Source: Paracyclopina nana
Lineage: Eukaryota > Arthropoda > Copepoda > Cyclopoida > Cyclopettidae
DNA: 64,000 nucleotides
Assembly (NCBI GenBank): GCA_019096065.1
Contig: JAGUCH010000003.1
Coordinates: 4,464,001 to 4,528,000 of the forward strand
Direction: 5' to 3'
Within the stretch, counting starts at the first letter, position 1; each line of letters opens with the position of its first letter. Shown piece after piece: positions 11,876-64,000 of the stretch. Below the pieces are notes generated by a model. The model saw nothing but the letters and a program-made list of their open reading frames with translations, did no database searches and had not been told where the DNA came from. The position numbers and the translations under genes were made by a program.

Positions 11876-13929
11876 ATGTCTTCGAAAAAGCTGTTTTCCC
11901 AAGCTTTACAGAAGTTCAAAGAGAAAGAGCGATTGTTGGCTCTCGCTGCTGCCGCTTCAGGAGCGAATTCAGAGGCTTCAGAGAGCGTCTCTGGGAAGAA
12001 ACTGCTGCCTGAGAAAACTGTCCAACTTGTATTCTTGTCTGCAGTTCGTGTCGAATTCACTGTGCCAGTCACCGACAGAAGAATCCCCCTCAAGCGTGAT
12101 TACATTTGTTGTCTGTTCAACAAAGGCACTCTTGTCATTGCTGCCACTTGCATCAGCGCCGAGTTGAAGCCTTTGCTCATTCCTGGCGCCTCATTCCTGA
12201 CCAAATTCATTCATACGGATGCGGCGAGGATGAGCTATGACACTGTTCGCATCAACCTTGGCCCCAAACAGCTTCAGGTTGACAAGCCCAAAACGGCGGA
12301 GACGGCATTGAAAAAAATACTCGAATCTAAAGACTTCTTTCTGCAAGAATCAGCATTGTCAAGAATCAGCGATTTTTTCTCACTTCAATTCCAAGGTAAA
12401 TTAGCGAAAGAACGGTCATAATTTGTATTCATAAAAACTCGTTCAATATTTTAGGCATGAATCTCGTTTCAATCGCTCAAGTTGTCGTTGGCTTTAAAGA
12501 TTTGACCCAATTTGCTCAACTTGTCCCTTCGGATTGTGACTTGCTACTAAGGAAAGCTGCTGCTGACGAAGATGATGTTCAAATTATTGCTGCACCGGTT
12601 CAACCCTCTAGACCAAGCTTGTCCACCTCCAAAACTGTTCACCGTCCTGGAGGGACAGCCCTTGAGCAGAAATCACTGCGCACCAGATGCCAATACGATC
12701 CCCTAAAGAATGATCAGCTGATCATAGTGCTTGGCTGTGACTCCTGCTTAGCAATATTCTCCTTTGCATCTGAAAAAATCAACCACTTTTTGCTAATGCC
12801 TGACTGCTTTTCCTCACTGAAAGCCCAGCATCGAGGTCAAATCCAGGACGCCGTCGACAAGGCGATAGAGGAGAAGGTGTGCCTTGATCATCAGAAGCAA
12901 CGTTTGGAGTGTTGTGGCCAACTCTTCGAATCGGTGTTAGGGTATTGCATTCATCGTGACAGCCATGGGCGAGATGATAGCGCATTCACCTGCTTCGAAT
13001 GTGGAGCAATGCTTTGGAGTCCCTACTCACTGTATCGGCACAAATGCACCATTGACTACCTCATAGCACCTCAGAAGAACTGCTATAGTAGGCAAGACGT
13101 GGTCGTGTCTCCGCGCTCAAATTATCCCTCTTTGGATGCATCAGAGGCTCAGTCTCTTTTAACATGCTTCTGTGGGAAGGCACTGCCTTTCGTGAACTTT
13201 TTAGTGTCTCATTGCATCGCTTCAATTCCTTGCTTCCATCTGCTTGCCAGCTTGCTGAATGGTCCTCAAAAGAATTTCGCTAAGGCTTGGCTGCTTAACC
13301 GAAAGCAGCCGGCTCGAGAGATTACATGCTCTGAATGTGGATTAGTGCTATCGAATCAAGTGCTGTATATGTTGCATCAAGACCATCACTCGACTGTGGA
13401 AACCAATGTTGTCTGCAAAGGTTGCAGCTACCAATTTCCGACTCCTTGTCAGTTTTTCAGACACATTTGCGAAACCATGAAAGACTTGAACGATGTCCGA
13501 CAGCTCACTTGCATTATTTGCGAGAAGATAGCAGTCTGCATGTCTTCCAGGAGAGACAATGAAAGCGATACACTGGGCTTGCAAATTGAAAGTGTCCACC
13601 AGGCTCTGGACTGGAGCCATGACATCATTGATGAAATGGACATTAAAGATGAACCCGTTGAAGGTGTTTTCGTCTCCACGTACAATAGGGAAAGAAGCCT
13701 ATGGAAGATCAACGGCGCTCCTAAGCCTTACCCAGCTGATTGGTACGTTTGCACCGACTGTGAACCATATCGAATACTCACGGAGGACTCCATTGGCGCG
13801 CACATGAAAGATTGCGAGAACCACTACCGAGTTGATCCAGCGTGGCTGTACTCAAAGTCAGAGCTACTCATCAAAGATCTGAGGCTCCAACCAAAGTATA
13901 AGAGTCTTGTAGAAAGGCTGCAAAAATAA
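11876..13929 (+). CDS. Uncharacterised zinc-finger-like protein
   Basis: Two exons, 11876-12395 and 12455-13929, give 664 residues. The start is the first in-frame ATG (MSSKKLFSQALQKF); frames upstream lack an ATG. I do not recognise the family. The N-terminal ~230 residues have no clear motif. From about residue 330 there are spaced Cys/His pairs resembling divergent C2H2 fingers: FTCFECGAMLWSPYSLYRHK, ITCSECGLVLSNQVLYMLHQ, VVCKGCSYQFPTPCQFFRHI and a later YVCTDCEPYRI. An acidic patch (DIIDEMDIKDEPVEG) contains a possible SUMO-acceptor motif, KDEP. A nuclear or chromatin role is plausible but unproven. Its stop codon overlaps AATAAA (13925-13930), and the next gene ends only 13 bp away on the other strand. 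Confidence 0.75.
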
Positions 13930-35698: not shown

Positions 35699-38489
35699 AT
35701 GTCCTTTTTGAGAGGATCTGCAAATTACGTCTGGTGCACCACCAGTGTGCTTGGAAAGGGGGCCACTGGAGCTGTGTTTCAAGTGAGTTATGTCAACTAG
35801 CTGAGGAAATAGCACAGTTTTAATGAAAACTCGAAAAAGAAAAAAAAACTGAAATCCTTGGGACGGCTAGTGAAATGACGCAATTTTCTTATCTGGCATT
35901 ATAGATGTTATTTTATTTTTGAATCATTGGCTAAATGGATTTTATTTTATTCTTTGAATCACTTCATTTGCCAATTTGTGAGCTGGCTAGGTATTAGCCG
36001 ATTAAGTTAAATCAATTAAGTGCTGGCAAACGGTAGTTTCAAAAATAGTCCCATTTTGAAAACGATTACAAACCAGTCTTGCATCAAGAGAAATGTGATT
36101 TTTATGGCTTGACACGGCAAAATAATTTTATGTATTGGAAACTACAGGGCGTGAACAAGCATAATGGAGAAACCGTGGCTGTCAAGACGTTTAACCAACT
36201 GTCACACATGCGACCTCAGGAGGTTCAAATGCGAGAGTTTGAGGTCCTGCAAAAGGTCAAGCATGAAAACATTGTCAAACTGCTTGCAATTGAAGAAGAG
36301 CAAGAGGGACGAGGCAAAGTTATTGTCATGGAGCTTTGTACTGGAGGATCTCTTTTTAACCTACTTGATGACCCCGAAAACAATTTCGGCCTCGACGAGG
36401 ACGAATGGATACTAGTTCTTAGCCACTTGTCAGCTGGCATGAATCACCTCAGGGACAACAATCTGGTGCACAGGTGTGATAATATCCTACAATTTGATAG
36501 CTTCAAATTCAACATAATTTAATCATATTCATAGAGACCTGAAGCCTGGCAACATAATGAAATTCATTAAAGATGATGGCAGTATTGTGTACAAACTGAC
36601 CGATTTTGGGGCAGCTCGTGAGCTCAATGACGATCAACAATTCATGTCTCTCTATGGTACAGAAGAATATCTTCATCCTGATATGTACGAAAGAGCTGTG
36701 CTACGAAAGCCTGTCGGCAAGACCTTTGGGGCCACAGTGGACCTATGGTCCATAGGAGTCACACTATTCCACGTAGCCACAGGCAACCTTCCCTTTCGTC
36801 CGTTCGGAGGTCGCCGTAACAAAGAGACAATGTACTACATAACAACCAAAAAAGCATCCGGTGTTATATCGGGAGTTCAAACCTCTGAAAATGGGCCAAT
36901 TCAGTGGAGCAGAGAATTGCCCAGTACTTGCCTCCTCAGTGCTGGAATCAAAAAACACATCACGCCCCTTCTGGCTGGACTCCTTGAAGTGAATCCACAG
37001 AAGATGTGGACCTTCGACAAGTTCTTCAGCGAAGTCACCAGGATTCTCAACAAAAAGAAAATTCATGTTTTCTTTGTCAACAAGCTCAAAGAGATGAGGG
37101 TGTACCTCGACAAAACGGAAAAACTGGAGGACCTCCAGTTGTTACTCAATGAACAGGCTGAAGTTGAACCTGCTCATCAGATTTTGTTATTTGACAAGAG
37201 CTTCTTGTCACATCACGTGGACAACACCACTCCTGGTACAAGCTACCCTGACACTTCATCGTTGGAACCAATCGTCATGTTTAGTAAAGAAAACAATAAC
37301 GTGGCTTTGGGCATTGACAAGGAAGTGCCCGCCTTCCCAACCTTTCCGAATTTAGTCTCTGTGGAAAATGACGCCACTTTGGCCAAAAATGCATGTGCTG
37401 TTGGCTATGCTTTCCAAAGGAAGATTGAATGCTATTCAAGGTAAAGTCTACATGAAATAAGTTTGTGAAAATTTGGCTCACATTTTTGCTCTCTGTAGGT
37501 GCTCAAAAGTCATGTCACATGTAGCAGTCAGAACCTTGTCTGAAGTGATCAGCCATCAACTAGAAAAACTCCAAGAGATGTGTGACCGATGCAAATCCAT
37601 GACAAAGTCTTCGCACCATCAGGTGTCTTACTTTAAAAGTAGCCATGATGCTCATTTGAAAACGCTTGATTTGCTCACTCACCCTGATGACTCCATAAGC
37701 ATCGATGCCTCTGAATGGATCAAAAGGCTGTCAGAAGCTTGCCAAGATGAGGCCAATAGGATTGAGGACCTCAACAAGAAGTTTGCTGAGCTGTCTCCAG
37801 CCATTGGCCAGCTAAACAAAAAATTCGTGTTGGATCGCCAATTGACTCGTGAATGGCAGGACCTGACCCGTGACATTGCCAACATTGATACGAGCTCCAT
37901 CAAGGCCCGTACATATGTAGCCAAAATGAAAGAATCGTGGCAGCATTTACTACGGGACAGGGCATCGAGAACCCTGACCTATAACGACGAGCAGTTCCAC
38001 ATCCTTGAGAAGATAAAAATGCAAGAAACCATTCGTGTGCTCATGGATCTCCTTCAGACTGGAGTTCAACCTGTGATTCATCAGTTGACTGATGTTCTTG
38101 CAGATTGGTACAAGCTGGCACAAACAACATTCCTTCAAACTGAAATTCTGCATAAGGACATAAGCTTATTCATCGATGAGGTCGACTCCTTTAGCGTGAC
38201 CTTGAAGGCCGCCCAAGAAAGCTACACAACTACTCTCATAGAAGCCATCGATGGCATCAAGTCAGAACTGGAAGCTCAAAATGTGAAGAAGAAGACTATC
38301 AATGGCACAGGAGCTCCCACTGGCGTGGATTCAAAGCAAGTACGGAGAGCCCTCAGGTCCATTCTCACTACTCAAGATGAGGTGTGGGGAATTTTGAGGG
38401 AGAACACTCGCCTCATTGAGCAATTTGGACAAATTGCAATGGCGTCCGCCTCTTTAGACCAGATCGAAATCAGTTCCTTGCCCAAATGA
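35699..38489 (+). CDS. TBK1: TBK1/IKK-epsilon family kinase
   Basis: Four exons: 35699-35782, 36148-36473, 36535-37440 and 37499-38489, 768 residues (human TBK1 has 729). The kinase domain is complete: P-loop LGKGATGAVF, VAVK with catalytic Lys41, HRD at 136-138, DFG at 160-162. The activation loop reads FMSLYGTEEYLHPDMYERAV, in which Ser175 matches the trans-phosphorylated Ser172 of TBK1, and ATVDLWSIGVTLFH follows. A ubiquitin-like region (about 300-390) and two long coiled, helical stretches (scaffold/dimerisation, adaptor-binding C-terminus) complete the IKK-related layout. In animals this kinase acts in innate immune signalling and in selective autophagy by phosphorylating cargo receptors. 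Arthropods usually carry one IKK-epsilon-type gene, so TBK1 versus IKBKE naming is arbitrary. Confidence 0.96.
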
Positions 38490-38708
38490 TTTATTAATGC
38501 AGCCTGTGATAACACAAGAAACAAAGACACCAAAACTTGTAAATAAAGAGCTATGCTAATATCATAATAACTTATATCTTTCGCGAATTATGGCCGTTCT
38601 TAGAACAAAATAGGGGATTTTTTATTTTCCGTCAAATCACTCTGCCGTACTGCGCAATCAAAACAAAACAGTGAAAACACTTTGACAAGCACCTCAAACA
38701 AGGTCGGA

Positions 38709-41700
38709 ATGGCTGAACTAGCTTCTACTACGTCTAATAAAGAACTTCCAATCATTAAGCCATTCACTGAACGACAACTGTTGAGCCTTTACCACAACAG
38801 CCTGCTCAATGAGGTCTCCGTTGAAACGGAGTCCTTTTTGGAAAAGGAAAACAACCTCTACTTTGAAAATAGTCCACTCAAGAACTTACTGTATGAGTAC
38901 ACAAAATCACGAACAGCTCTCAAAGCTAGCGAACGACTGCTTGAAAAGCTGAAAGAAGGGCTCGAAGAGCAAGAAAAGGCTATTTGGACATTGGAACAAT
39001 CACAAGTAGAGAATCATGGAGTGTGCCATGACAAAGTTAAAGTTGTGTCCGTGTGCAAGTTTCAAGTCGCTAGGCACAATGCAGGCGCAGAAAATTCTTG
39101 TTGTAAGACCATGCGAGAAATGCGCGAGGAGCTCTTTGAAAATCATTCCTTGTGCCTGTACAAGACCACCAAGTTGAAGATGAGAATCGACGACTTCATC
39201 AACAAAGCCTGTGGTGGCATTGCAGAAAACCGAGAAGTAGTGATTACCAATATTAGTGTCCTATTTAACTATCAGAGGAAACTCAATGCTAATGATGACT
39301 GCATTCGCGATTCTAGAGCTTGGCTAGACCGCCTTGTCGCGGTGCTCTTACAAAATGGTCCTACATTTAAGGACCACTTGTTCTTGCTCAACCACATTTT
39401 AAGATGTCCTGGTGGAGTTGGGCACTGGTCAGCGCAGTATGTTCAAATTCCAAGCCCAATTTTTGTTGAGGACGAGGACTACTTGAACAACGAGTCGTTG
39501 AATCTTATGGTAGCACTCTTGTCGGTTCTGTTCTCTCCTGTGGAAGGAAGGGTGGATATGCTTCGTGACTTTTGCTTAACAGCCGCACAGACGAAGACTA
39601 ACTCAGATAGTCCCAATTGGGTATCAGTTGACTCGGATGGGGAAGACGATGAGGGAAGATTTTTGTCTGAAGCGCCCTTACGAGAAAACGATTTTGTTTC
39701 TCTGCTCAACCAGTTTCCCTTCGAAGCTCTTTTCAAATACTTGATGAAGATTGGACCCACCACACATTATGATCCTGGGCGATTTTCTACCAATTCCTTC
39801 TTCAAGCTGTTTGCGTTTGGCACCCAATTTGTCAACTTGCTCAAGACTGGCTTACAGAACTTCAGTTCTCCTGCTTACAGACAGTTGTCAAAAAGGTTGG
39901 GTCGTCTTATCAAGCACACCCTTCAGTGCATCACGGATCACTGGCTGTGTTATTTTTACATGAATCAAGCTCACCCGGACGAAATGGCAATGGTTGGTCG
40001 CATAGAGGTGGAATATAACAATTTCTTCTTAAGGGCCGTCATATCAATCTTCCGATCATCTGCGAATGCAGGAATGTGGCAATACTTGGCTGTTGTGCCT
40101 TATAGCAGCATCAGGGAGAACTTTCTTTGGTATGCATACGCCATGTTCCATTTCATGGACCTCTCTGATATTGAGACATTGAGGCAAGACCCTTCATTCT
40201 CCAAAATGGTCTTTGAAAGGATGAGTGACGCGAAGTTTCGGGCTTCCTTTGAAGATACTCTGAGTGGGCTTCCGGATACTGAAATCATGTTCCTTTTGAC
40301 AACTTTCGCTAACATGGCAATCGCTCGTGATTTTGAGCTTTCTAAGCAGTTTGTGTGCACAGTCGTCACTGAGCTTGTTGGTATTGGCTTCCTAAACAAG
40401 CTCACGTCCGACATGTCGTCAAAAGGATGCAAGGACTTACTGGCAAACATTTCGTCCAAGCACCCTCAAGTGTTATCCCATCTTCTCCATTACTTTTCCG
40501 AAGAGCCGCTCCTAGTGGAAGATTCGGTAACTATTCTCAAAATGGTCATTGCATAACAATATGACAATTATTATATATTTATAGGACATTGCTCTCTACA
40601 TTTGTAGAGACCTGGTTTTCCACTCGTGGTTTCCAACTGATGCAGATTTCGATCTTCTGGACTCCTGGCTTACTAAGAAGGCCCTGGCCACCAATTTTAG
40701 CCAACTGAGCAGAATGATATTCAGCAAGATGAATTGGAATTCCCTGCCTTGGGAGCGTCATAAGATCTTATCATTGTCTGTGGTGGAGGCTAGCTTGAGA
40801 TTTGCTCCGGACTCGATTGCAGGCAACTTTTTGCATGATAGCATGAGGCAAGTGTCAAATTTAGCTGGTAAGTTTAGGCGATCACCCGAGTTAATTTTCA
40901 CCTCGTGGGCTTGGGAAATGTGCTCAAGGCTCAAACTGCATCGATTCGATCAGTCTGATTCGAGACAATCGTTTGTTGACTTGGAATTGGACGCAGAAGT
41001 CTTGGGTAGGGCTGTTGCCACCAAAAATCCCCTTGGCTGTTATGTTGCTCTCCAGCTTTGTCAGCCTGGACACCTGATCGAGGATTTCCTTGACCGCGGA
41101 TTGAACTTTTTAGCCATTGTTCTATCAAGTGGTCACTACGATCATGTTTTGGAATGTTTGGTCAACATAACTCCACTAGCTTTCAATCAACCATCGATGC
41201 TCTGTGATAATGAAGATTTCATCAAAGTTATGCATCAAGTCATTTCAATAGACCATACCTATTTGAAAATGGCGAAGGATCTGGTAGTGAGTGACTTTCC
41301 AGGTCCGGTGCTCAAAGAATTTGTCAATATGTTAAGCTATCAGCTAGACAGCAAAGAAGCCTTGTATGATATTAGAAGTGCCCATTCAATCATCGCCTTT
41401 TGGACTAGAGTCATGGTGCAAATACCGAACTGGATGAACACAAGAAGCTCACTGTTCATCCTGGAGCACCTATGCAAAGCATGCGACCCAATAGGCATTA
41501 TTGAACTCAAACGCACAATTCAAGACTTCGATCAAAAGATGCTTGCGCCTTCCACTGGAGGTTTTCTTTCTTGGTTGTCAGTGTCTAAAGCCACCACAAC
41601 TTCTTTAACGTCAGTGATGCAGGAATTTCCATGGACCTCTTTCTACGTACTTGAAGTTGAAGAACAGAGGGAAGAAGTTGTGCGTTTTTGGAAGGCTCTT

Positions 41701-44700
41701 GTGGAGAAACTGTCCGATGGGTGCGTTTCTGTTGAAAAATGCCAAAAAGACATCATGAATGAGGCACACTTTCCAGAATATGCCACCAATATCAATGCAT
41801 TGCCAATCTACAAGTGGTGTCAGATGATCTTGGATTGTCCACAAGATGAGCCAATGCAGGTTGCCTTTGCTCAAAAGTTCTTCAAGTACTTCACTGCGAG
41901 CAGTGCAAATGACAAGCCGAAGGTTGGCCGGTTCTTTTTTGAAGGCATGATCAATGCTCACTATTTTGGTAGAGTTGTGGCTAAGTTTAAGGTGATTGAA
42001 GACCACTATACCAAAGAGGGAAATGCATTGGCTAATGTATTCTGCGCTTTTGGATTATGGCTTAAAGATATGCTCATATTGGACGAAAAACTACATGTGC
42101 CAACATTGAGCCCCCAAATGTGCCCTGATCTACTGAGCGAAATCTTAGATTCAAGCAAGGTAATTATAATTTTTAGGCTGTTTCACTGTATTTTTAATTA
42201 AGCTATTTTATGTCAAGGGAGTCAACTTGTCTATGGTGGCAAATGAGGAGTTTTCGGCAATGCTGAAGCAGGGCAGATCGGAGTGGATGCGACTTCATTT
42301 CAGGCCAAACAAGTTAGCCTTAGATCATGCATTGGACTCAAAGGAAGAATGCAAAGTAGGACCCGACATGACATTGGGCTCCTTCGACAATCCCACTCCT
42401 TTGTTGCTTCAAAATTCTCTACAGACAAGCATCCGGCACATCAGTGATGCATGGTTTGTCAGTCCAATTGCTTTTGAGCCTCTAGTCTCACCACTTATTG
42501 ACGCTCTTCGAGAATATGGAACGTAAGTCAAGTGTTCACGTGATTTCTGGAATTTAAATATTCATCAAACTCAATCACTTTTGTAGCAAGTTTGATGAGC
42601 TTAAACGTGAGTTTGGATCGTTAATGTGCTCCTATAAGGAGTTGGTGGGCGGCCTTTACGTCAATGTCAAAACGGAGCAATGGACAAAAGGCTCGTGCAT
42701 GGGAACGACTGGTCCGAAGGGCCAAAAGTACGAATGCGCAGGCTCTGCTGCAATTTGCCACAAGTTCTCTCAAGCACAGCTCCAAGAGGTAGTGGACCAA
42801 AAGATCAAATCCAACAAAGATGCCTTGTCTAAGGTTCTAGCAAATGCTGTGCAGCCTATTCAGACTCCAATCATTTCTGCATTTGTTCTGCTGGAGGATG
42901 TCGTGGAGTAAGTCTAAATTGAGATCTCCTTAAGCAATTATCCGCTAACATAGCTGCATTTATAGGTACCTTATGAAGATGTACTTCCGACACTTGAGTT
43001 TGTCCCCTGGACGAGGACCTACTCAATCACTAATGCATTATCGCCAAATGGGCGTCATGCTTTTCTACTTGCTGGTGGACTGTTTGGGAGAAGAAACGAG
43101 CGTGTGCCCGCCGTTGCTAAATTTGCTGACAATATCTTTCGAAAAGCTGGGCCAAGCCGTAATATCCGAACACCCTGACCAATGTTTGCCACTACTGCAA
43201 AGAATATGCTCCAAGCCAGACTTGGCATCGATCTTGTCCCCCATTTTCACCCCAGGCTGTAGCGATGCTCCCACATTTCTGAAGATGTACCATATGATAT
43301 CTGGCATGACAGATGAAAACTCGTGCTTGGCATTTACGCTGCTATCAAAAATGAACGTTGATGCGTGGGCAACGAAAGCAACAGAAAAAGAGACTTCTCA
43401 ATTGATAGCCTGCTTAGGAGAAGCCTTTCAGAGGACTGGACCCAAAGTGGATGCAAAAAGGCAAATGATCCATGATCTGCACCGAACGCATCTATCAATG
43501 ATGTTTCTACACAATTTTCCCGAGCATTTGCAACAAATTGTTCATTTTCTATTGGTGCAGACAGAGAGCGCTGTCCTCGATCCCAATGTGTGGGTAGATT
43601 TGGTCAACTCTTTGCTTCCAAAAGATACTGTCCGACCGCAAACTTGCCCATCTGCTTGGGAAGCCCTTCTGAAATCAGCATTAATCAATGAAAACGGCTC
43701 GCTCATAGGAGTAGAGGAGGTAAGCTACTTTTGAAATTTTCGCATCCAATTACATCATGCATTATGTGTATCAGGTTCAAATGCTTCACATGATGCTATC
43801 AACTCATTTCAACCATGAGAGAAGAACAGTGGGTTTACACGGGCTATACTCAAAATATAAAAACTACACCGTGCCCTTGGCTGCAATCATGTGTCTCGAC
43901 GTTGGCTGCTATGTAAAGCTGCTATCGAACAATGCCGAAAGTAAGTGTCAAATTTCCCTTAATTAACATTAGTTCATACTTTGTAGTAACTTCTCATTGA
44001 TAGACATTAAACACTTGTTTGATTGGACATCGTACGTCTTTGAGCCTTGGCTCATTCCATTGTCTGACGTACAAAGGCAAGAAACGGCGGCATGGATCCA
44101 GCAGTTTGCGGAATCAACCAAAGTCATGTTTCCTTGGGCCCCTGGTGATGTTAAAGCGGTGACACCCATGCTTGTTGCTTACTCTAACTGCGTCACCTAC
44201 ATTGACCAAAAGCTTCCTACGTCTGAACGAAGTGCTCTCTCGCACCTATTGGAGCTGTACTGCCTCAAGTTTGCCAATCCCGCCATCAAAGACTTCATTC
44301 TCGCTCCAATACACACTCACTGGCTTTCACTTGAATGGAGCAAGTTCGTTCCAAAAGAAGAAGACATGAACAGATTGGCAACCGTTCTCGACACTTTCAT
44401 CCCTCTGTGCCACGAGTTCCTCGGAAGGGTTTTCGTCAAGTTTCCTTGGGATACGATTCTAGGTTCACCCTACAATGTTCAATCTATCGCACCCAACATT
44501 CTCCACGTCATCGTGAAACTTTCCTCCGAGCCCCAAATCCGTCAGGTAAAACGCTGAACCCTTTCACATAGATTGATGTCGATTGAATGCTCTCTGACTT
44601 TCAGAGCAACGAGCTAATGAAGCTAATCAATATTGAGATCACTGATGAAATGTGGCCTAAAATTTCGGCATCTCGTTACGAGAGTCTGATGCACTGGTAC

Positions 44701-47655: not shown

Positions 47656-50600
47656 ATGAACTGGACGGCAACGTGTTGTAGCCTTTTTCTCCTCTGGCTG
47701 GCCTTTTCGCAAGGCAGCAGTGAGTTGTGCACCTTACAAAAAGTGCCTAATGGACGAATGGCGCTCGTGAAAAGTGGCTGGGTTGAATTCACGTGCAACA
47801 AAGGCTTCGCATTAAATAGCCCCACAAAGTTAATAAAATGCAGCGAGCTCCATCGCCAATTTTTTCCGAGCTGCATTAGCATTCAAAATGACCAGCCCAC
47901 CTACGAAGATTATGAGAGGCATGAAGATGAAGAGGGAGGGAAGAAAAAGAGCGAATATGGCGATTACTATGATTATGATTACAACGAATTAGCCAAATTT
48001 GGACTCAAGCAGCCGGGCGAGACGAGTAAATATGAGTATGACTATGACGACGACGAGTCCTATGACCAAGAGTATTACAATAAGTTGGCAAAAGCGTACG
48101 AGGACTACAAAGATGAGGGGAACGGAGATTATAAAGAGGACTATGAGGAGGGTGAAATTCGCGAAGCAGACAAAGAAGATATGATGAGTGGAGCTGAAAC
48201 TGAAAACGACCGGGATGAGCCAAATAAGGATTCAATTACTTATGGCGATGACTTGGAAGAAAAAAGAGAATACACAGAAGAAGATTCACATGATGACGAC
48301 GAGGATGAGTCAGAGGATAACAATGCTGACAACAACGAAGATGCTAAAGAAGCGGAAAGTGTAACCAAAGAAGACCAAAATGAAGAATTGTCTGAAGAAA
48401 CTGACGTCAATGATGAAGATGATTATGAAGATGAAAAAGAGGCTACTGACGAATCTGGAGACTTGCTTGATGAGACAGTTGGTCGACCAATTTCTGAAAC
48501 TAGTGCAGACAAATCCGAGAGCTATGAAGATTCGTATGACGAAAGCTATGATGAAAACAAAGCTGAGACCGAAAACAAGAAAAACGAATATGATGAGCTC
48601 GAATCTGAGGAAGAAAATGCGAACACTGACACATCGTATGATGAACCAATTGTAATAGAAGATCCCAAAGAAGAAAACATCGTCGCAAGCAATAACAATG
48701 AGAACGATATCAGGCAAGTTTACATTGATTACGCTGGAAGTGGCTCCGATCCTGCTGATATTGAGGAACCGACATCTGCGGCAAGTGAAGATGACGAAGA
48801 CTATAATTACGACAGTGAAAGTAGTGGGGACTTTGATAACACCAAGGCTACATCAACCACAGAAAAACCTATGCTGGCAGCAACGACAAGCATGACAACA
48901 CCAATAATATTAGGTGATGATGATGATGATTACACAGAAGGAAGTGGCCTTCCTACGACTTCAACATCCATGCCCACTAACATTCCCACAGACGATGAAG
49001 ACCTTACCGATGGGTCTGGAGAAGGGGAGGGATCTGGTGACTCGGACGAGCTCAATCCTGATGAGATCTACAATTTCAGGCGAGATTTCTACTTCACCAA
49101 CGAGGTCGACCTCATGAGGTTGGACAATTCTTGCAAAGACAAATTCATTTCAGCTCCTCAAATTTTCAACGCTAAAATCAGGTAAGACCACATATCTGTG
49201 AAAATAATTGCATTACTTTAAAAAACGATTTTATGTCCGCAAGTGACTACAACCACGAGATCAAAAATGTGGTCATTCCCGGGCGATTCTACTCTGCTGT
49301 CACCTACACTTGCGAGCCTGGCTTCAAAAGCGAAAACTATCAGCTTTTCTGCTCCGAGGGTGAATGGCAAGGCAAGTACCCAGAATGCGTCGGCACATCA
49401 TCACTCAGCGTCACTCCTGACGCAGAGGCCAACAGCAACAACAACGGTGATGTAATAAATGAGAGGCCATCAGTCTGCTCCGAGGCTGAGGCAGCTAAAT
49501 GCCATCATCTTTGCTCCGTTGATGACAACGAGGCCGTATGCAAATGCCATGCAGGCTACAGCCTCGACCTTGACGATGAGGCCACTTGTGTTGACGTCGA
49601 TGAATGTCTCAATGACAACGGAGGCTGTGACCACGAATGCTTAAATGAGCCAGGTAGGATGAGGTGCCGCTGCAGATCAGGCTACTCTTTGGCAGGAGAC
49701 GGTCAAAGCTGCATTGATGACAACGAGTGCCAATTGTCTCCAGACATTTGTGGTCATGGTGACTGCGTAAATCTGCCTGGCACGTACTTGTGTCAGTGCC
49801 ATTCTGGATTCCAAGAGGAAAATGGGATATGTCAAGATATTGATGAGTGTACCGCTAGCTCAAATTGCCCTCAAAATAGCCAATGCTTCAATCTTGTGGG
49901 CAGTTTTGAATGCACTTGCCCCAACGGCTACCAAATGGACAAAGCTACAAATATGTGCGCCGATATAGACGAATGCCTTCACGCAGACCATGGATGTGAT
50001 CACATTTGCATTAACACTGAAGGCTCAGTAATATGCGAATGTCAACCAGGCTACCAGCTAGAAGAAAACGGCCAATCTTGCCAGGATATGGACGAATGTG
50101 CAACCGACAACAATGCGTGCTTGCATGGTGATTGCATCAACATCCCAGGATCACACGAGTGTCAATGCCATCCTGGGTTCCAGCTCGACGCCAGCAGCAA
50201 AAGGTGCGATGACATAGATGAATGTGCCAACAACAACACCCAAATTTGTGGAGAGCATGGCCAATGCAATAACCTGATTGGGAGCTTTGAATGCAATTGT
50301 GATTTGGGCTACGAAATGATACTTCATCATAATAATGGGTGTCAAGACATCGATGAGTGTCAGTTTAACAATGGGGGTTGTGATCAGATTTGCGTCAACA
50401 AACCTGGAGGATTCATGTGCCAATGCACGCAGGGCTATACTTTGGATGCGGATGGCAAACACTGCTCCGACATCGATGAATGCATCAACTCCATTTGTGG
50501 ACAGCACGGTGATTGTGTTAATCTGCCAGGATCATTTTCGTGCCAATGCCATGACGGTTTCCAGTCTGAGGAAAATGGCAGGGCTGCGTGCAGAGACATC

Positions 50601-57906: not shown

Positions 57907-58558
57907 ATTTAAAAAGCCACTTCCTTTGACTGTTACGACCGTTGCGGTAGCCAACTAGCTTCTTGGCATTGGCCGGTGGTCTCGTGGTTGTACCTGTTTG
58001 AATTCTTGCTCACCTGTGCTCACTGCACCGCACCGGTATGTACGAACGTTGAGATGTTGTTGCATGAGCGCGCGCCGCGCGTTGAACTCTCCGCGTATAT
58101 TAAAACGCGAGAGCTAGCGAAGCTTTCCTCACTCCTCAGTTTCCTGCCCTCTTTGATCAGGAATTTCTCGGATTATAATTTGCGGCTTTGTCTTTTTAAT
58201 CCCACAAATATTTTGCTTCATCAAAGGAAGAAATGGCCGGGTTATTAAAAGCAGAGTAGCAATTCATAATCTTTTGGTAATTCCTCTTAAAATGTGCGGT
58301 ACAAAGCGGTAGTGGGATGTTCATTCGGCTAGAAATGCAATTCCTACTATATTAAAAGTGCATCATCTAACTAAGATGATACAATTTCAAAAGCCAGAGA
58401 AAGAACTCAAACCCCGCCATTGCAGTGGATATTAGCAGTCGAACAAGCTCTGGGGCAAATTCTACACTTCTTTATTCATACAATATATTTGTTCAAGCTT
58501 GATTGAGTGAAGCTTCGGCTCTTTTAAAATTGAGTCATGTCTTGATGATTTGGTTTCT
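57907..58558. other. Intergenic, no gene seen
   Basis: Upstream region of the vinculin-family gene and 3' flank of the small BTB gene. It contains a GC-rich patch (GAGCGCGCGCCGCGCG at about 58065-58080) and TATATTAA at 58096-58103, but no ORF with recognisable content. Confidence 0.4.
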
Positions 58559-59269
58559 TTAACATTCAGATTTAATTTTCAAGTCTTCCTCTTGCTCCTC
58601 TTTAGCTTTTTTTATCGGCAGAACTGTCACAGCGTTCTTGAGGTACTTCTGGGATACACCATGGACTTTTCTGGTGTGCGCACCCCGTGCAATTGTACTC
58701 TTGTAAGTTTTGGGGCACAATTTGCATTTATAAGTTTCCTGAGGCATGTGCTTCATTTTGTAATGGACCGTTGCAGAATTAAGGGAGCTCAAATTTTTAC
58801 CACATGCAATGCATATGGCTCTACCGTCTGGCAATAACGTAACTTGACCAGGCATATTCTCATCCTCGTCAGCACCAGGGTCCGCTTTGATATTGGCCTC
58901 GTCAGTATTGGCATCATCTTCAGGATTAAAAACGCCTCTTATCTCCATTTCTATACACGCGGCATTAAAGTCCTCGCTGCGTGACTTCTCGACACTGGTT
59001 TTCCCATAATAAAGGCATTGCATAATTTTTTGCAATATGTCAAACTTGATCCCTGGAAGCGATATCTCGTTAGGTTCTTGAGAATTCTTCAGCTCCTTGA
59101 TCCTTTTTCGCAAGTAGGGGGAGAAGGCACTTAATATCAACTTATGCCCGTTGATGCGCTTTTTTTCTGCGGACGTCAATGACACATCATACAGGTCAGG
59201 GTCATTTTTGATGGCAGAGATTCCAGAGGCCAAATAGGTGTCGTAATTTTTCAATTGGAAATGCTCCAT
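58559..59269 (-). CDS. Small BTB / two-finger C2H2 protein
   Basis: Single exon, 236 residues, starting at ATG 59269 (MEHFQLKNYDTYL). Residues ~10-100 form a BTB/POZ domain (YDVSLTSAEKKRINGHKLIL, SAFSPYLRKRI, FDILQKIMQCLYYGKTSV). After an acidic linker come two C2H2-like fingers (AICIACGKNLSSLNSATVHY, YKCKLCPKTYKSTIARGAH) and a lysine-rich tail. Such arthropod BTB-ZF proteins are nuclear transcription factors or chromatin proteins. The BTB core resembles that of the gene at 2299-4059, which may be a relative. Confidence 0.8.
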   Translation of the reverse strand: MEHFQLKNYDTYLASGISAIKNDPDLYDVSLTSAEKKRINGHKLILSAFSPYLRKRIKELKNSQEPNEISLPGIKFDILQKIMQCLYYGKTSVEKSRSEDFNAACIEMEIRGVFNPEDDANTDEANIKADPGADEDENMPGQVTLLPDGRAICIACGKNLSSLNSATVHYKMKHMPQETYKCKLCPKTYKSTIARGAHTRKVHGVSQKYLKNAVTVLPIKKAKEEQEEDLKIKSEC

Positions 59270-60693
59270 GTTGCTCAAATCCGTCTACGTCTGCTTCGAA
59301 ACTAAATCTTGTCTCAGTGTTAGCAATCCGATCACGTACAGCATTCAGCAAAACTGTAGTACTGAGTAATTCATGACCACTGAAAAATGATGAGAGCAAT
59401 AGATTTTAGAGGTAAGCATTCAGATAGTTTTCAAAAAATCTCTCTTCTGATATCAAGGGCTTTTTGAAAAATCTTATGAACCATCTTGAGGGGCTACCCC
59501 TAGATAGCCACCATGCCAAAGGGTTTTGTCCATGGGCTCCTAGTGAGGGGAGATATTGGCCTTCAAAGTTTTGGGAAATTCTTATGTAGTAAAACTTCGG
59601 ACCCCTCTCACATCCATATGAAGCAATTTTATCCCCTCATTTTTAGGCCATTGTTAGGCCCCCTGAGGGTGTCTTTAGAAATGGGATGTAAGGTGTTGTC
59701 ATGATGCCCACTACTGAACTCCAATGGGCAATATGCGAATTTTAGGGGCTAACTTTGGAGCAAAATTGAGGGAACATCCTCAGGGCGAATTTTGTTCATT
59801 TTTTGCAAAGAGTCAGTGAAAGATTAGCACTTTCAAATAAAAAAAAATAAAAAAAGGTCCATTTTTGTTTGAAGCCATATACTGCCTAGAGATGGAACGA
59901 GTTTCAGCTTGGCTTCTTGAAAACTTGAAACTAAAACCCAGCTTGAGCTACGTAAGCAAAAAGCTTGGGATCGCTCGAACCAAGTTTTGAAAAGCTTGAA
60001 AAGCTTGAAGCCCAAAAAATGTGAAGCTTGAAAAAGCTTGACACCAAAATTTTTCCAAGCCTTAATCCATTTTTAATCAAAAGAAAAAAGGGCTGAGTTA
60101 AAAATTAACAAATGTGTTCGAGCGATCCCAAGCTTTTGAAAATAATTATCAAGCTTTTTCAAGCTCAAAATTTCACATTTCAAGCTTTTCACTTTTTTAG
60201 TACTTTAAGATAAAAAATGGCGATTACTCACAAGATTTGATAAAATTACCCAAAAAAGTAAAAAAATGATAGAAATAGCTTTACTTTCAGTAAGTACTAC
60301 ATTCCCTTTTAACGCACCCCCATAAGCCTCGCCCAGTAGCACTTCTCTTGCTATATAAGTTGCCCGTCAAAGTTTGATAATTTCTCCCTGTTTATTAAAT
60401 GAACCTAAGGATAATGAGCTCAAAATTTAATTATATAAAAAGTGGTATATTAAACAACTTTTATGTTTCGGAGGATTCGAAGCAGACTCAAACGAGGTCG
60501 TGGAGGCTGAGGAATCCGAAGAATATGCGAAGACCGAAATATACGTGTTTCGTGTTCAAAGGTTTATTGTGTACTTGCGCTTTACTCTCAGCGCGATACT
60601 TAGCATGAAATACAAAAAGTGTTACCAGATAGATATACAAATACTATATTTTGAACAATTTCTCCTCGCCTTGAACGGAAACTTGGCCTGGCC
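59270..60693. repeat. Repeat-rich intergenic DNA with an AAGCTTG-rich inverted repeat
   Basis: Between 59880 and 60195 the word AAGCTTG or CAAGCTT recurs many times. A perfect 20-nt inverted pair (59961-59980 and 60116-60135, AAGCTTGGGATCGCTCGAAC) makes the region foldable. 59480-59830 looks like old dispersed repeat. 60450-60600 has a short acidic ORF without motifs. No gene supported. Confidence 0.6.
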
Positions 60694-63600
60694 TTAATCG
60701 AGGATCTCCCTGGATTCCTTGATGGCGGTATTCTCTTCGGCTGTGGCATCCTTGAAGAGCACGAACCCGGTTTGGGCGACTGGATCGACATGAAATTCCG
60801 AGACAGTTGATTGATTGAAGAGGCGAGACGTGGTTCTCCCTCGCGGACAAGCTGCCCAGAATTCTTCAAACATGACGATCAAAGGGAAGTCGCCATGTTG
60901 GGCGCGGAAGTGGCCGAGGCGGTAGCAAAGGCTGCATCTGTTGCGCAACATTGCACAGACGGCGTCCAGGTGCCCATCTGTCAAGCAAATGTTGTAGTTG
61001 CAAGTCAAGTCGACGTCCTGGATTTTGCATTGGTTGGTCGTGTGGTCACCCGATCCACAGCGTTCACAGCAGTGAGGGAAAAGTTTTTCTCCCCCGCCAA
61101 AGGACAACATGTAGGCCCTGCGGTCGATGTCATTGGGGTGCTGCTTGTAGACAATTTTAAGGCGCTCACGAGACTCGCCGGGGATGATGTCAACGTTGGG
61201 GACCCATTGGCGCTCGTGCAAAAAGATTTGGAGCAGCTCATGCAGACGATCTACTGACTGCCATGCGTCTCCCGGACCAGGGGCAAAAAATAAAGGCCAA
61301 GCTCTATGCGCGCAAGTTTCCCCAATGTCATTAACGAATGATTGATCTTGAAACCAATTACCGAAGGGGCGGATATTTGCTTCATTTTTGACCAAGAGCT
61401 TCATAACATTGTCGTTACCCACAGCCCTTAGCAGCAGGCAATGCATAACGCGGATCACATCTGCACCCGATCCCATGTTTTCCAGCTCTGCCGCCCTAAT
61501 GGCCAACTGCCGCAGCAACTCAAACACGAGGCAAAGCTCCCAAATTACAAAGGCCTTCATTGGCGCTTCCCATTGTTGAAAATGAACTGTATAATCCCAA
61601 TCTTTGAAGACTAGATATCTGCCGTTGTTGAACCTTTGCTCATTGATCTCGCTCGGGTGGATGTAAATGAAGGGGTAATTGAGTGATTCTGCTAGGAATT
61701 CAGGACCAGTTCGAATGGAATTGTAGTGGGGGCCGAGGTGGCTTTGGGGAAAGGCCATGAGCGTAAGATTTGACGCGTCGACGAATTGACGCATTACGTA
61801 GGCGGATTCTGGGATGCTGCAGACACGTTTTACAATATCAAACGCGCCATACGCAATCTTAATGATGCTACCACTCTTAAAGATTTTCCGTACAAAGTTT
61901 GGAATTGCGGCGCCCTTCAGTGTTTGGCCATCCCAATCAACATGCACGAAGACGCTCACATTGTTGAAGGACATTAAAACTAGGCCGTAGAAGGCGACTT
62001 GCCAGAAGTTGGTTTGCCGAAGCTCGCGCAGTTTTTCGGGGGGGTGGAGGATTAATTTGAGGGCAACAATGCCAAACGACTCCACCTCATCAACAAACCC
62101 CGATTTTGAAAGTAGCGTATTCATGTGATGAGGGCTAAGGCAGATAATTCTTGTCAAATGGACAATATTGGGGGGCGAAAATGGGGAGAACTCCCTTGGG
62201 CCATCACTGGGCAACTGGTTACGGGCGCCCATAAGCGAGAGAGTGGCAAAGGCGGGTTTAGTGTGCCGAACAAAATCAGATGGGCGGAGCCCAAACGCCC
62301 CAAGGGCGCACATGGGCAGGGGGCAGTCAGGATCCCTTTTTTGGCCCACCCAAACTCTATTTCCCTCAATGGCTAGTACGCAACGAGGCACATATTTATC
62401 AGGGCGATTGTCAACTATCATTTTACGCTGCTTGAGGGAAAGATTGCTAGACGACGCAACTGACTCGATGTCGCTGAACCTCTCACCTTTAGCCAACGAG
62501 ATGGTGATGACGTCTTCATCTTCTGGGAGCGGGGGCATGCAGTAGAACTCACTCTGGCCAGGCGTGGGTGGCAAAGGACCACCGGTTTCCTCAAGGAGCT
62601 TGTTCTTGAAAGCGCGTTCTTTGTCTCGCAATGCTCGCGATCGTGTTCTTGGGGCCTCGACTGGTGGGGAAATGGATCCAGATCTAGGTCCAAATTGTTT
62701 CTTCGGAGGTTCGGTCGACGGTCCTGGCGAGGGCTCGTAGCTTTCCAAGACTTCATCAACAACCATGAACTCTTCGTCGCCTATTTTGGCCTCGCTCTTG
62801 GTAGGGGTTGTCGTGACAATAGTGCGTAGCACGGGGTCTGATGGGCGGGGAATTCGCTTAAAGGGGACGAAACGATCAGCATTGCCCATTATCACGTCGC
62901 CGCCCTCCGGACCTTGAAGCTCAAAAGACTGGTCTGTAAAGCCCTCGACATGTTTCCCAACGCTCCCAAGGGTGGACTGAATTAATCTGGCTAAAGCTAC
63001 AGGAATGCATACAAAGTCGGACGTGTCGGTGTTTGTTGAAACTTCTGCAGTGTCATAAATGCGTGGAGGAGCTGCCGGATTTACGAGGTTTCGTGTGACG
63101 CCTGATTCGCGCTCCCGGACCGTGGGTAAACGAGCGAGTTCAACTCCCACGCCAGCGGCGATGCGAGCACCACCTGCAGTTGGCGTTTTAATCTTTGCTA
63201 GCACGTGGCGGGTGTATTCCTTGCTTGACGGGTCGAAACGAGCACGCAAATGTCCAAGATCCTTATAAGCAATGTCACTAAGTTTCTGCTCCCAAATTGA
63301 TGCTTGCTTGACACAGTTTGCGGGGCCTAACTCTGGATTGACTCGATTCTTTTTACAATGAGCAAGCCATTGATCGTGGAGATCACGATGCACCAAGGCC
63401 AGAATTGTGCCGACGGATGTGTTTTCCCCCAAAAGCAAAACCCGGGTGAAATTTACCCTTTGAGCATTGTTGCGGGCATTTTTGGCTAATTTTTGGGCCT
63501 TACTAGACAAAGTGTCGCTGCCCATATAGTTATGGACACTGCCGGCAATGTAAACGTTGGGAGACGCGTAAATTTGAACAAACTTCGTCAACTTGCCCTT

Positions 63601-63951
63601 ATGCATGAGGTCCATCAGATCTTCGATGAAGTAGACGTCCTCGGTGTCAAAATGGCGGCGAAGGCGAGCACGTTGCCGCTCGATTTCCTCGAGAATGCGC
63701 GACGTCGTTTGCGGGCTAGATCGAGGCTGGTGGAAAGCCCTAGCACCTTCACGACGGGGTGTGATCGCTCCCTGGACAGGCACCCTGAAAATGGCGGACG
63801 ATGCAAGCCTAACTTCAGATTTTACCCGTTTTCTTGATCCATCATCCTCAGAGTCGGTTGAAGGTGTGCCCGATCGAATGGCGTCCGAGCCCGAGGCCGT
63901 GGGATTGTCGTTGTGGTCGTCATCGCTGCCGCTGGAGGGCCTTTTGGACAT
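60694..63951 (-). CDS. Large single-exon protein: degenerate RNase D-like region plus C-terminal zinc knuckles
   Basis: 1,085 residues from ATG 63951 (MSKRPSSGSDDD); an earlier start beyond the window is possible because the frame is still open. No named family recognised. Residues 1-60 are Ser/Asp-rich with a basic patch (SRKRVKSEVR), suggesting a nuclear location. The middle is disordered, with Pro/Ser linkers. Roughly 640-850 resembles a DEDD (RNase D/EXD) exonuclease fold: VSVFVHVDWDGQTLK, GSIIKIAYGAFDIVKRVC, FVDASNLTLMAF, KDWDYTVHF, AFVIWELCLVFELLRQL. The first Asp-x-Glu and the last Tyr-x-x-x-Asp appear lost, so it is probably inactive. Two zinc knuckles end the protein: CERCGSGDHTTNQC (962-975, CCHC) and CSLCYRLGHFRAQH (1006-1019, CCHH). 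Base composition is visibly richer in G and C than its neighbours. No polymerase, protease or integrase motif accompanies it. Confidence 0.7.
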   Translation of the reverse strand: MSKRPSSGSDDDHNDNPTASGSDAIRSGTPSTDSEDDGSRKRVKSEVRLASSAIFRVPVQGAITPRREGARAFHQPRSSPQTTSRILEEIERQRARLRRHFDTEDVYFIEDLMDLMHKGKLTKFVQIYASPNVYIAGSVHNYMGSDTLSSKAQKLAKNARNNAQRVNFTRVLLLGENTSVGTILALVHRDLHDQWLAHCKKNRVNPELGPANCVKQASIWEQKLSDIAYKDLGHLRARFDPSSKEYTRHVLAKIKTPTAGGARIAAGVGVELARLPTVRERESGVTRNLVNPAAPPRIYDTAEVSTNTDTSDFVCIPVALARLIQSTLGSVGKHVEGFTDQSFELQGPEGGDVIMGNADRFVPFKRIPRPSDPVLRTIVTTTPTKSEAKIGDEEFMVVDEVLESYEPSPGPSTEPPKKQFGPRSGSISPPVEAPRTRSRALRDKERAFKNKLLEETGGPLPPTPGQSEFYCMPPLPEDEDVITISLAKGERFSDIESVASSSNLSLKQRKMIVDNRPDKYVPRCVLAIEGNRVWVGQKRDPDCPLPMCALGAFGLRPSDFVRHTKPAFATLSLMGARNQLPSDGPREFSPFSPPNIVHLTRIICLSPHHMNTLLSKSGFVDEVESFGIVALKLILHPPEKLRELRQTNFWQVAFYGLVLMSFNNVSVFVHVDWDGQTLKGAAIPNFVRKIFKSGSIIKIAYGAFDIVKRVCSIPESAYVMRQFVDASNLTLMAFPQSHLGPHYNSIRTGPEFLAESLNYPFIYIHPSEINEQRFNNGRYLVFKDWDYTVHFQQWEAPMKAFVIWELCLVFELLRQLAIRAAELENMGSGADVIRVMHCLLLRAVGNDNVMKLLVKNEANIRPFGNWFQDQSFVNDIGETCAHRAWPLFFAPGPGDAWQSVDRLHELLQIFLHERQWVPNVDIIPGESRERLKIVYKQHPNDIDRRAYMLSFGGGEKLFPHCCERCGSGDHTTNQCKIQDVDLTCNYNICLTDGHLDAVCAMLRNRCSLCYRLGHFRAQHGDFPLIVMFEEFWAACPRGRTTSRLFNQSTVSEFHVDPVAQTGFVLFKDATAEENTAIKESREILD

Positions 63952-64000
63952 GATGGCCTCGATAATCGACGATTCGAAAAATGCGGCCGATTGCACCCAA

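Follow-up and report, generated by a model that had tools for sequence, protein, structure and literature searches.

A third gene with a putative degenerate RNase D-like domain and zinc knuckles in a BEL/Pao retrotransposon of the copepod Paracyclopina nana

What kind of gene is a long, single-exon open reading frame (ORF) in copepod DNA whose product looks, from the letters alone, like an exonuclease that has lost its active site? The frame in question lies in a 64,000-nucleotide stretch of the Paracyclopina nana genome (GenBank assembly GCA_019096065.1, contig JAGUCH010000003.1, positions 4,464,001 to 4,528,000; hereafter, the window). It occupies positions 60694..63951 on the minus strand, stop included, and runs uninterrupted across 1,085 codons from its ATG, giving a protein of 1,085 amino acids. 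The sequence-only reading of this DNA had described an intact single-exon frame with raised G+C content, and both descriptions are correct, with a G+C content of 0.49–0.53 across positions 61,001–64,000 compared with 0.40–0.42 across the neighboring 58,001–61,000. Translation of the frame, a genome search, and a Pfam scan of the adjoining pol gene identify it as an accessory gene, ORF3, occupying the env position of a BEL/Pao (Belpaoviridae-type) long terminal repeat (LTR) retrotransposon that inserted recently; it is the third gene of an element rather than a stand-alone gene. On balance, and with slightly more confidence than doubt, we favor a reading in which the ORF3 of this young element is a former DEDDy exonuclease that now acts as a binder and is made as a readthrough extension of Pol.

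The element in the window measures 9,981 bp from LTR to LTR. LTR comparison placed the 3' LTR (194 bp, TG...CA) at 60464..60657 on the minus strand, and it differs at one of 194 bases from the 5' LTR, which lies beyond the window (C3:4534251-4534444). Next to the 3' LTR is a 5-bp target-site duplication, TAAAA (60459..60463, minus strand), that is repeated before the 5' LTR; target duplications of BEL/Pao elements are short, at 4–6 bp. The purine-rich tract read directly ahead of the 3' LTR (60658..60670, minus strand) is a candidate polypurine tract, and a primer-binding-like site, TGGCGCCCAAC, directly follows both 5' LTRs read, that of the window copy and that of a second copy (L037/L014) with identical 166-bp LTRs and the target duplication ATGTC. 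Primer-binding sites of BEL/Pao elements are typically complementary to tRNA-Arg or tRNA-Gly. The window copy is known from its LTRs, the end of pol, ORF3, and the linker between them, a stop-free stretch of 73 codons that runs from the pol stop (C3:4528171-4528173, beyond the window) to the ORF3 ATG and whose 3' part occupies 63952..64000 on the minus strand. We note that gag was seen in the L037/L014 copy alone, where it carries knuckles and a DUF1759 match (E = 6.4e-4, 20.2 bits) that falls below the cut-off of 25.4 bits.

ORF3 relatives in this genome form three clades, which we call classes A, B, and C, and the window copy belongs to class B. The Pfam families Peptidase_A17 (Pao), rve, and DUF5641 were found in pol of all five class B loci scanned, with a Peptidase_A17 match at E = 1.4e-26 in the window copy. 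RVT_1 was present in four of the five, the match being truncated by the locus edge, and H2C2 was likewise present in four, with an E value of 0.14 in the fifth. A single exon and raised G+C content would also fit a host gene that had been captured or domesticated, by retroposition or transfer, and was separate from the element's own genes. However, copies repeatedly show ORF3 beside Pao pol and enclosed by LTRs, and the trees of the two genes match, which rules out such an origin for this copy; we give it practically no credence.

Relatives of ORF3 are numerous across the genome searched (92 Mb in 10 contigs). A protein search with the window ORF3 returned 52 matches and a second search with a distant relative 59 more. 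After merging matches whose starts were no more than 4.5 kb apart, these correspond to 36 and 44 loci, respectively, or at least 80 loci carrying ORF3 relatives, most of them known from match tables alone. Among 16 loci selected, a whole ORF3 was read in two (L038 and L039) and pieces in six. Three pairs of near-identical copies on different contigs (96.7%, 98.2%, and 98.3% identity over 6.4–6.5 kb) show recent movement. Of the origins offered by the sequence-only reading (retroposition, horizontal transfer, or a mobile element), the last is borne out by the LTRs, target duplications, Pao pol, and the loci with relatives. The same reading had held that near-identical copies with element ends would make this a plain transposon ORF, and we find exactly such copies, as pairs on different contigs, together with LTRs, target-site duplications, and pol. 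The label is correct in that this is a transposon ORF, but it undersells a pseudo-exonuclease ORF3 whose relatives include proteins with a complete catalytic set.

Some copies have structural features of their own. The copy at C7:2.92 Mb contains a perfect tandem duplication with 549-bp spacing in the reverse transcriptase region (L037:4907-5454 onward), which is either recent or an assembly artefact. Adjoining the copy at C2:10.76 Mb is an array of repeats of about 54 nt, both direct and inverted, with the core CTATGCCAAAAGGTGTCTA (L013:770-2050). Very similar Pao/ORF3 copies lie side by side in opposite orientation at C2:4387308-4403900 (ORF3 at C2:4388297 minus and C2:4397775 plus; pol at C2:4387308 plus and 4392974 minus), and this inverted pair could yield double-stranded RNA. 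BEL/Pao elements are highly diverse in this genome as a whole. Genome-wide, 150 places were scored for Pao Peptidase_A17 of 243 candidates, many of them in single frames of 2,400–3,100 amino acids, and several ORF3-bearing copies have pol frames of about 2,000 amino acids.

Three regions can be distinguished in the window protein. The first is an N-terminal conserved region at about residues 85–260 (63172..63699, minus strand; edges approximate), recognized by many invariant columns in 13 class B proteins and without a Pfam match. The second is a putative RNase D-like (PF01612-related) domain at about residues 612–815 (61507..62118, minus strand; edges approximate), placed via relatives and with its catalytic residues lost. 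The third is a set of three zinc knuckles (60895..61068, minus strand), comprising CCHC at residues 962–975, C-x4-C-x4-H-x4-C at 984–999, and CCHH at 1006–1019. All twelve Cys/His ligands of these knuckles are kept in 26 of 26 ORF3 proteins aligned, a set in which nine are partial and C-terminal (L036, L040–L047) and some form near-identical pairs. The knuckles had been part of the initial description of the protein, and the alignment confirms a CCHC/CCHC/CCHH array C-terminal to the degenerate DEDD-type domain. We considered gag as the source of the knuckles; the spacing is alike, but the best blastp E value was 0.06, and we do not claim this origin.

We infer the RNase D-like fold of the window protein through its relatives. 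Beside host exonucleases, a PF01612 search of the genome recovered two long frames, L034 and L036, both of which are distant ORF3s. The L034 match (E = 1.3e-5, 25.5 bits) exceeds the curated cut-off of 23.6 bits, and the L036 match (E = 1e-4, 22.7 bits) is just below it. PF01612 was matched by three of six class A members at E values up to 1. A comparison of class A and class B profiles with hhalign gave E = 9.5e-23 over 474 columns (alignments A1 and A2; L034, a class A copy with a split frame, lies outside A1), which connects the class to which the window protein belongs with the members that resemble RNase D.

The classes differ in their predicted catalytic residues. The DEDDy set D, E, D, Y, D is complete in six of six class A proteins, and in a weak hhalign comparison these five residues align opposite the host enzyme's own. 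Class B proteins have lost the first three DEDDy residues in 15 of 15 cases, with K or R at the first position in 13; 3 of 15 retain the Tyr, and all 15 have D or E at the last position. In class C, all five proteins lack the first two residues and the fifth, carry E at the third position, and in one case keep the Tyr. The window protein itself reads K, I, I, F, E at these positions. We note that the catalytic columns in classes B and C were placed by multiple alignment of divergent proteins and that the residue table excludes the broken ORF3s of L012, L018, L019, L027, and L028.

If the likeness to RNase D were a false lead, ORF3 would instead have an unrelated new fold with knuckles attached, and several results count in favor of this and against our interpretation. 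PF01612 was matched by none of 13 class B proteins, the window protein included, and by class A only to the extent given above; direct profile comparison with four host DEDD proteins was weak (probability 5% and 2%); and the AlphaFold2 single-sequence model of window residues 560–960 was unusable (predicted local distance difference test score, pLDDT, 33.5). The fold is accordingly ascribed to the window protein by way of successive profile comparisons. Searched alone, the window protein gave one insignificant knuckle match and no PF01612 match in Pfam, and one insignificant zinc finger match in the PDB. The class A profile found knuckle proteins of nucleocapsid and Lin28 type in the PDB (best E = 0.03) and, in favor of a DEDD assignment, one weak EXD2 match (E = 0.14); matches of the class B profile were mainly to knuckle proteins, plus two unrelated chains. 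A new fold, however, would leave unaccounted for an L034 score above the PF01612 cut-off and five DEDDy residues that are invariant across class A and stand opposite those of a host enzyme, and we consider it improbable. The earlier proposal of a dead RNase D-like domain followed by knuckles is thus upheld by the profile chain and motifs, with no help from structure. Viral contigs scanned for ORF3 relatives gave 53 and 8 pattern matches, none of which was confirmed.

ORF3 and pol share a history. Pol ends are homologous upstream of ORF3 in six of six class A loci and in two of three class C loci examined, the third (L039) having only about 0.3 kb upstream and falling outside the pol-end comparison. 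The ORF3 tree (24 rows) and the pol-end tree (21 rows) both recover clades A, B, and C, with main groups inside B that match. Cautions apply to A_L036 (long branch and odd composition), C_L039 (long branch), and A_L040, A_L042, and C_L038 (sparsely filled pol rows). The simplest reading is that ORF3 was captured once and descended alongside pol, and that the B and C lineages lost catalysis; since the trees are unrooted, one loss and two losses look the same in them.

ORF3 is under strong purifying selection. The ratio of nonsynonymous to synonymous substitution rates (dN/dS) was 0.05, 0.06, and 0.04 in three near-identical pairs, all of class B. For the last 500 pol codons of the same pairs, the values were 0.09, 0.09, and 0.11. 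Since dN/dS is lower in ORF3 than in the pol end, constraint on the dead version of ORF3 at least equals that on pol in the three pairs measured.

With metal ligands lost, conservation kept, and three nucleocapsid-type knuckles attached, the window ORF3 most likely works by nucleic-acid binding, not cutting. Class A proteins, in which all catalytic residues are present, may retain 3'-end trimming. The main functional rival is a counter-silencing factor, in which ORF3, as an adversarial counterpart of EXD1, Maelstrom, or MUT-7, would act on host small RNAs as a decoy or trimmer, with class A active and classes B and C acting as binders. Strong conservation of ORF3 would suit such a role, and DEDD relatives, including EXD1, Maelstrom, and mut-7, act in PIWI-interacting RNA (piRNA) and RNA interference pathways according to the accessible text of one report (PMC5408684). 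However, the knuckle array is at least as similar to nucleocapsid and Lin28 knuckles in the PDB comparison of the class A profile cited above, and we regard a counter-silencing role as unlikely, though worth keeping in view. The host role in piRNA or messenger RNA (mRNA) transport that had been suggested for this protein is not supported by any of our results.

We also weighed a role as an envelope replacement in entry or egress. The customary threshold for hydropathy is 1.6, and the best 19-residue stretch of the window protein, starting at residue 800, reaches 1.69, marginally above it. This stretch lies inside the exonuclease-like domain, however, and other frames peak at 0.99–1.93, with the sole value above 2 (2.24) in the linker of the window copy. 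Pfam gave no glycoprotein match, membrane features being judged by the hydropathy scan alone. Although ORF3 is in the env position and some belpaovirids have env-like genes (PMC8742986), we consider an envelope function very improbable.

The junction between pol and ORF3 suggests how the class B protein might be produced. In 19 of 19 class B copies compared, a single stop codon separates the end of the long pol frame from the ORF3 frame. From the pol stop to the ORF3 ATG, the linkers span 66–77 codons in ten different lengths and keep one frame throughout. Frame 0 is free of stops in all 19 complete linkers, compared with totals of 72 and 28 stops in the other two frames (3.8 and 1.5 per copy), and dinucleotide-shuffled linkers stay open in 2%–21% of cases. 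The pol stop is kept in 21 of 21 junctions, as TGA in 14, TAG in 4, and TAA in 1 of 19, never as a sense codon, and as TGA C in two further junctions, L056 and L058, the latter nearly the same as L026 and so not independent. The base after the stop (+4) is C in all 21. These counts cover the class B loci L009–L028 except the broken L028, 20 loci in all before that exclusion, and L057 stops short of the junction. By contrast, none of the eight class A and C loci has a continuous in-frame junction.

Part of this set also carries recognized readthrough signals. CARYYA after the stop defines the type I motif and UGA-CUA the type II motif, as described in PMC3542737, and we found TAG-CARYYA in all four TAG copies and TGA-CTA in L022, L027, and L056, or 7 of 21 junctions. 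A stop and an open continuation that are both kept by selection are the mark of programmed readthrough, and the class B junction thus suggests a Pol-ORF3 extension made by readthrough. The amino acids of the linker itself look unconstrained, with dN/dS of 1.33, 1.51, and undefined (0 silent, 5 replacement) in three close pairs with 20 changes in total, and 0.31–1.35 in 11 wider pairs, which are mostly close to saturation.

Alternatively, ORF3 could be translated from its own mRNA, spliced or started at an internal promoter in the linker, with initiation at the ATG, the linker as an inherited leader, and the pol stop as an ordinary stop. The ORF3 ATG is conserved and followed by conserved residues, and the unconstrained linker amino acids also fit this alternative. 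Within the first 70 bases after the pol stop, the linkers (L009–L027) share the motif TTYRAATTT followed by SSCGC, which we take to resemble an E2F site. Of the 19 linkers, 17 contain TTSSCGC, with 18 occurrences in total compared with 1.2 (largest 5) in 300 mononucleotide shuffles. The motif could belong to a promoter, and a separate ORF3 mRNA is also possible on this evidence. L022 and L027 carry second TTTRAATTT copies in frame with the first. For bdelloid LTR elements, spliced transcripts are reported as the source of ORF3 expression (PMC5408684).

Further observations weigh against readthrough. The other 14 of 21 junctions (TGA or TAA, then CGT, CAT, or CAA) match no classic readthrough motif. 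Type II sites are described as mostly having 3' RNA structure (PMC3542737, accessible part), and we found no consistent 3' structure at the junction across 19 copies (minimum free energy z-scores from -3.3 to +1.1). Readthrough is not general among these elements, as pol and ORF3 are in different frames in six of six class A loci and in the class C locus L038, and class C L053 has the two in the same frame with further stops between. Linker frame +2 is also without stops in 7 of 19 copies, which weakens the openness of frame 0 for single copies, and the chances per linker are not to be multiplied because class B copies are related. Nevertheless, a separate mRNA leaves unexplained why an apparently unconstrained linker is stop-free in frame in 19 of 19 copies when chance openness is low in each, why its length is a whole number of codons in ten sizes, and why the stop and the C at +4 are kept in 21 of 21. 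We judge expression from a separate mRNA quite possible, while doubting it.

Under the readthrough interpretation that we favor, the ancestral element would have encoded an RNase D-type DEDDy 3'-5' exonuclease with three zinc knuckles attached. The window lineage would then have lost the catalytic acids, with the rest of the protein and the knuckles under strong selection. A fraction of ribosomes probably passes the class B pol stop, and the resulting Pol-linker-ORF3 extension would bring an RNA-binding module into the particle alongside reverse transcriptase and integrase, where ORF3 would serve to hold, chaperone, or shield RNA or complementary DNA of the element itself. That RNA binding and the particle role are predictions from sequence is a further point on the side of doubt. 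We put forward only tentatively, with belief falling somewhat short of doubt, the broader claim of a BEL/Pao clade with its own RNase D-type enzyme, in one branch of which that enzyme has become a catalytically dead module for RNA binding, attached to Pol through programmed readthrough.

Additional ORFs in LTR elements commonly receive the label env or no name at all; here such a gene is, in the pairs that were measured, constrained at least like pol. Complete and dead versions of one enzyme in sister clades of a single genome amount to a natural experiment, which raises the questions of what a retroelement gains from an exonuclease and what stays useful once the active site is gone. The junction suggests a route by which an accessory protein could be delivered with Pol.

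The remainder of the window contains other coding sequences. An uninterrupted frame of 773 amino acids at 55633-57954 matches the vinculin family (E = 1.1e-13) and, weakly, ARM. A TBK1-like kinase lies at 36557-38486, with kinase and ULD in one frame and the TBK1 coiled-coil in the next frame downstream. Open frames of 490, 624, 495, and 509 amino acids (12457-13926, 38682-40553, 40714-42198, and 47656-49185, respectively) had no Pfam match at the thresholds used. Genome-wide, telomere-type TTAGG repeats, a kind that points to an arthropod, occur in thousands of copies, and the places listed lie at both ends of contig 1.

Among host proteins, EXD1, Egalitarian, and Maelstrom offer a parallel, as they too have lost catalytic acids and kept the domain, with RNA binding presumed. 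Unlike ORF3, these are host genes, the sequence link considered is that through PF01612, and we know of no CCHC/CCHC/CCHH array in them. If the broader claim above is true, binding would have been selected in place of cutting, giving an element-borne parallel with active and dead forms in one genome.

Compared with known BEL/Pao elements (Belpaoviridae, genus Semotivirus), the element described here is alike in its Pao-type pol, LTRs, 5-bp target duplication, and length of about 10 kb (PMC8742986), as well as in a third gene in the env position; a gag with knuckles and a weak DUF1759 match, seen in one copy, may be a further likeness. BEL/Pao elements have one to three genes, the third being env-like (PMC8742986; PMC3118150), whereas the third gene here is a pseudo-exonuclease with three knuckles that is not recognizably env-like and that, in class B, stands in frame behind the pol stop. 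The literature searched, in which subscription journals were thinly covered so that absence is unproven, showed no BEL/Pao element with an exonuclease-derived ORF3 or pol readthrough, and the accessible part of a tardigrade transposon paper (PMC11071193) had nothing on an exonuclease ORF3. The readthrough extensions of viruses (tobamovirus, benyvirus, furovirus) are alike in being in frame and in using the CARYYA or UGA-CUA contexts seen in a third of class B junctions (PMC3542737, accessible part). The class B extension differs in that it is predicted from sequence, mostly lacks a classic motif, and follows pol with a module of nucleic-acid-binding type.

Exonuclease-like genes do have precedents in other retroelements. 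A DnaQ-like exonuclease is listed among the accessory domains of LTR elements in the accessible text of PMC6338049, and a DEDDy ORF3 is known from the bdelloid rotifer LTR retrotransposons Juno and Vesta and from Terminons (PMC5408684, accessible text, as for all that follows). Juno and Vesta are retrovirus-like lineages and are not called BEL/Pao there; their invariant residues are reported as intact, with DEDD changed to DEED, and that text describes no pseudo-exonuclease classes and does not mention readthrough. The likeness, which we draw by description, lies in an RNase D-like ORF3 of DEDDy type placed after pol in an LTR element, and it extends to a Cys-His-Cys motif noted in Vesta2 and Vesta5.

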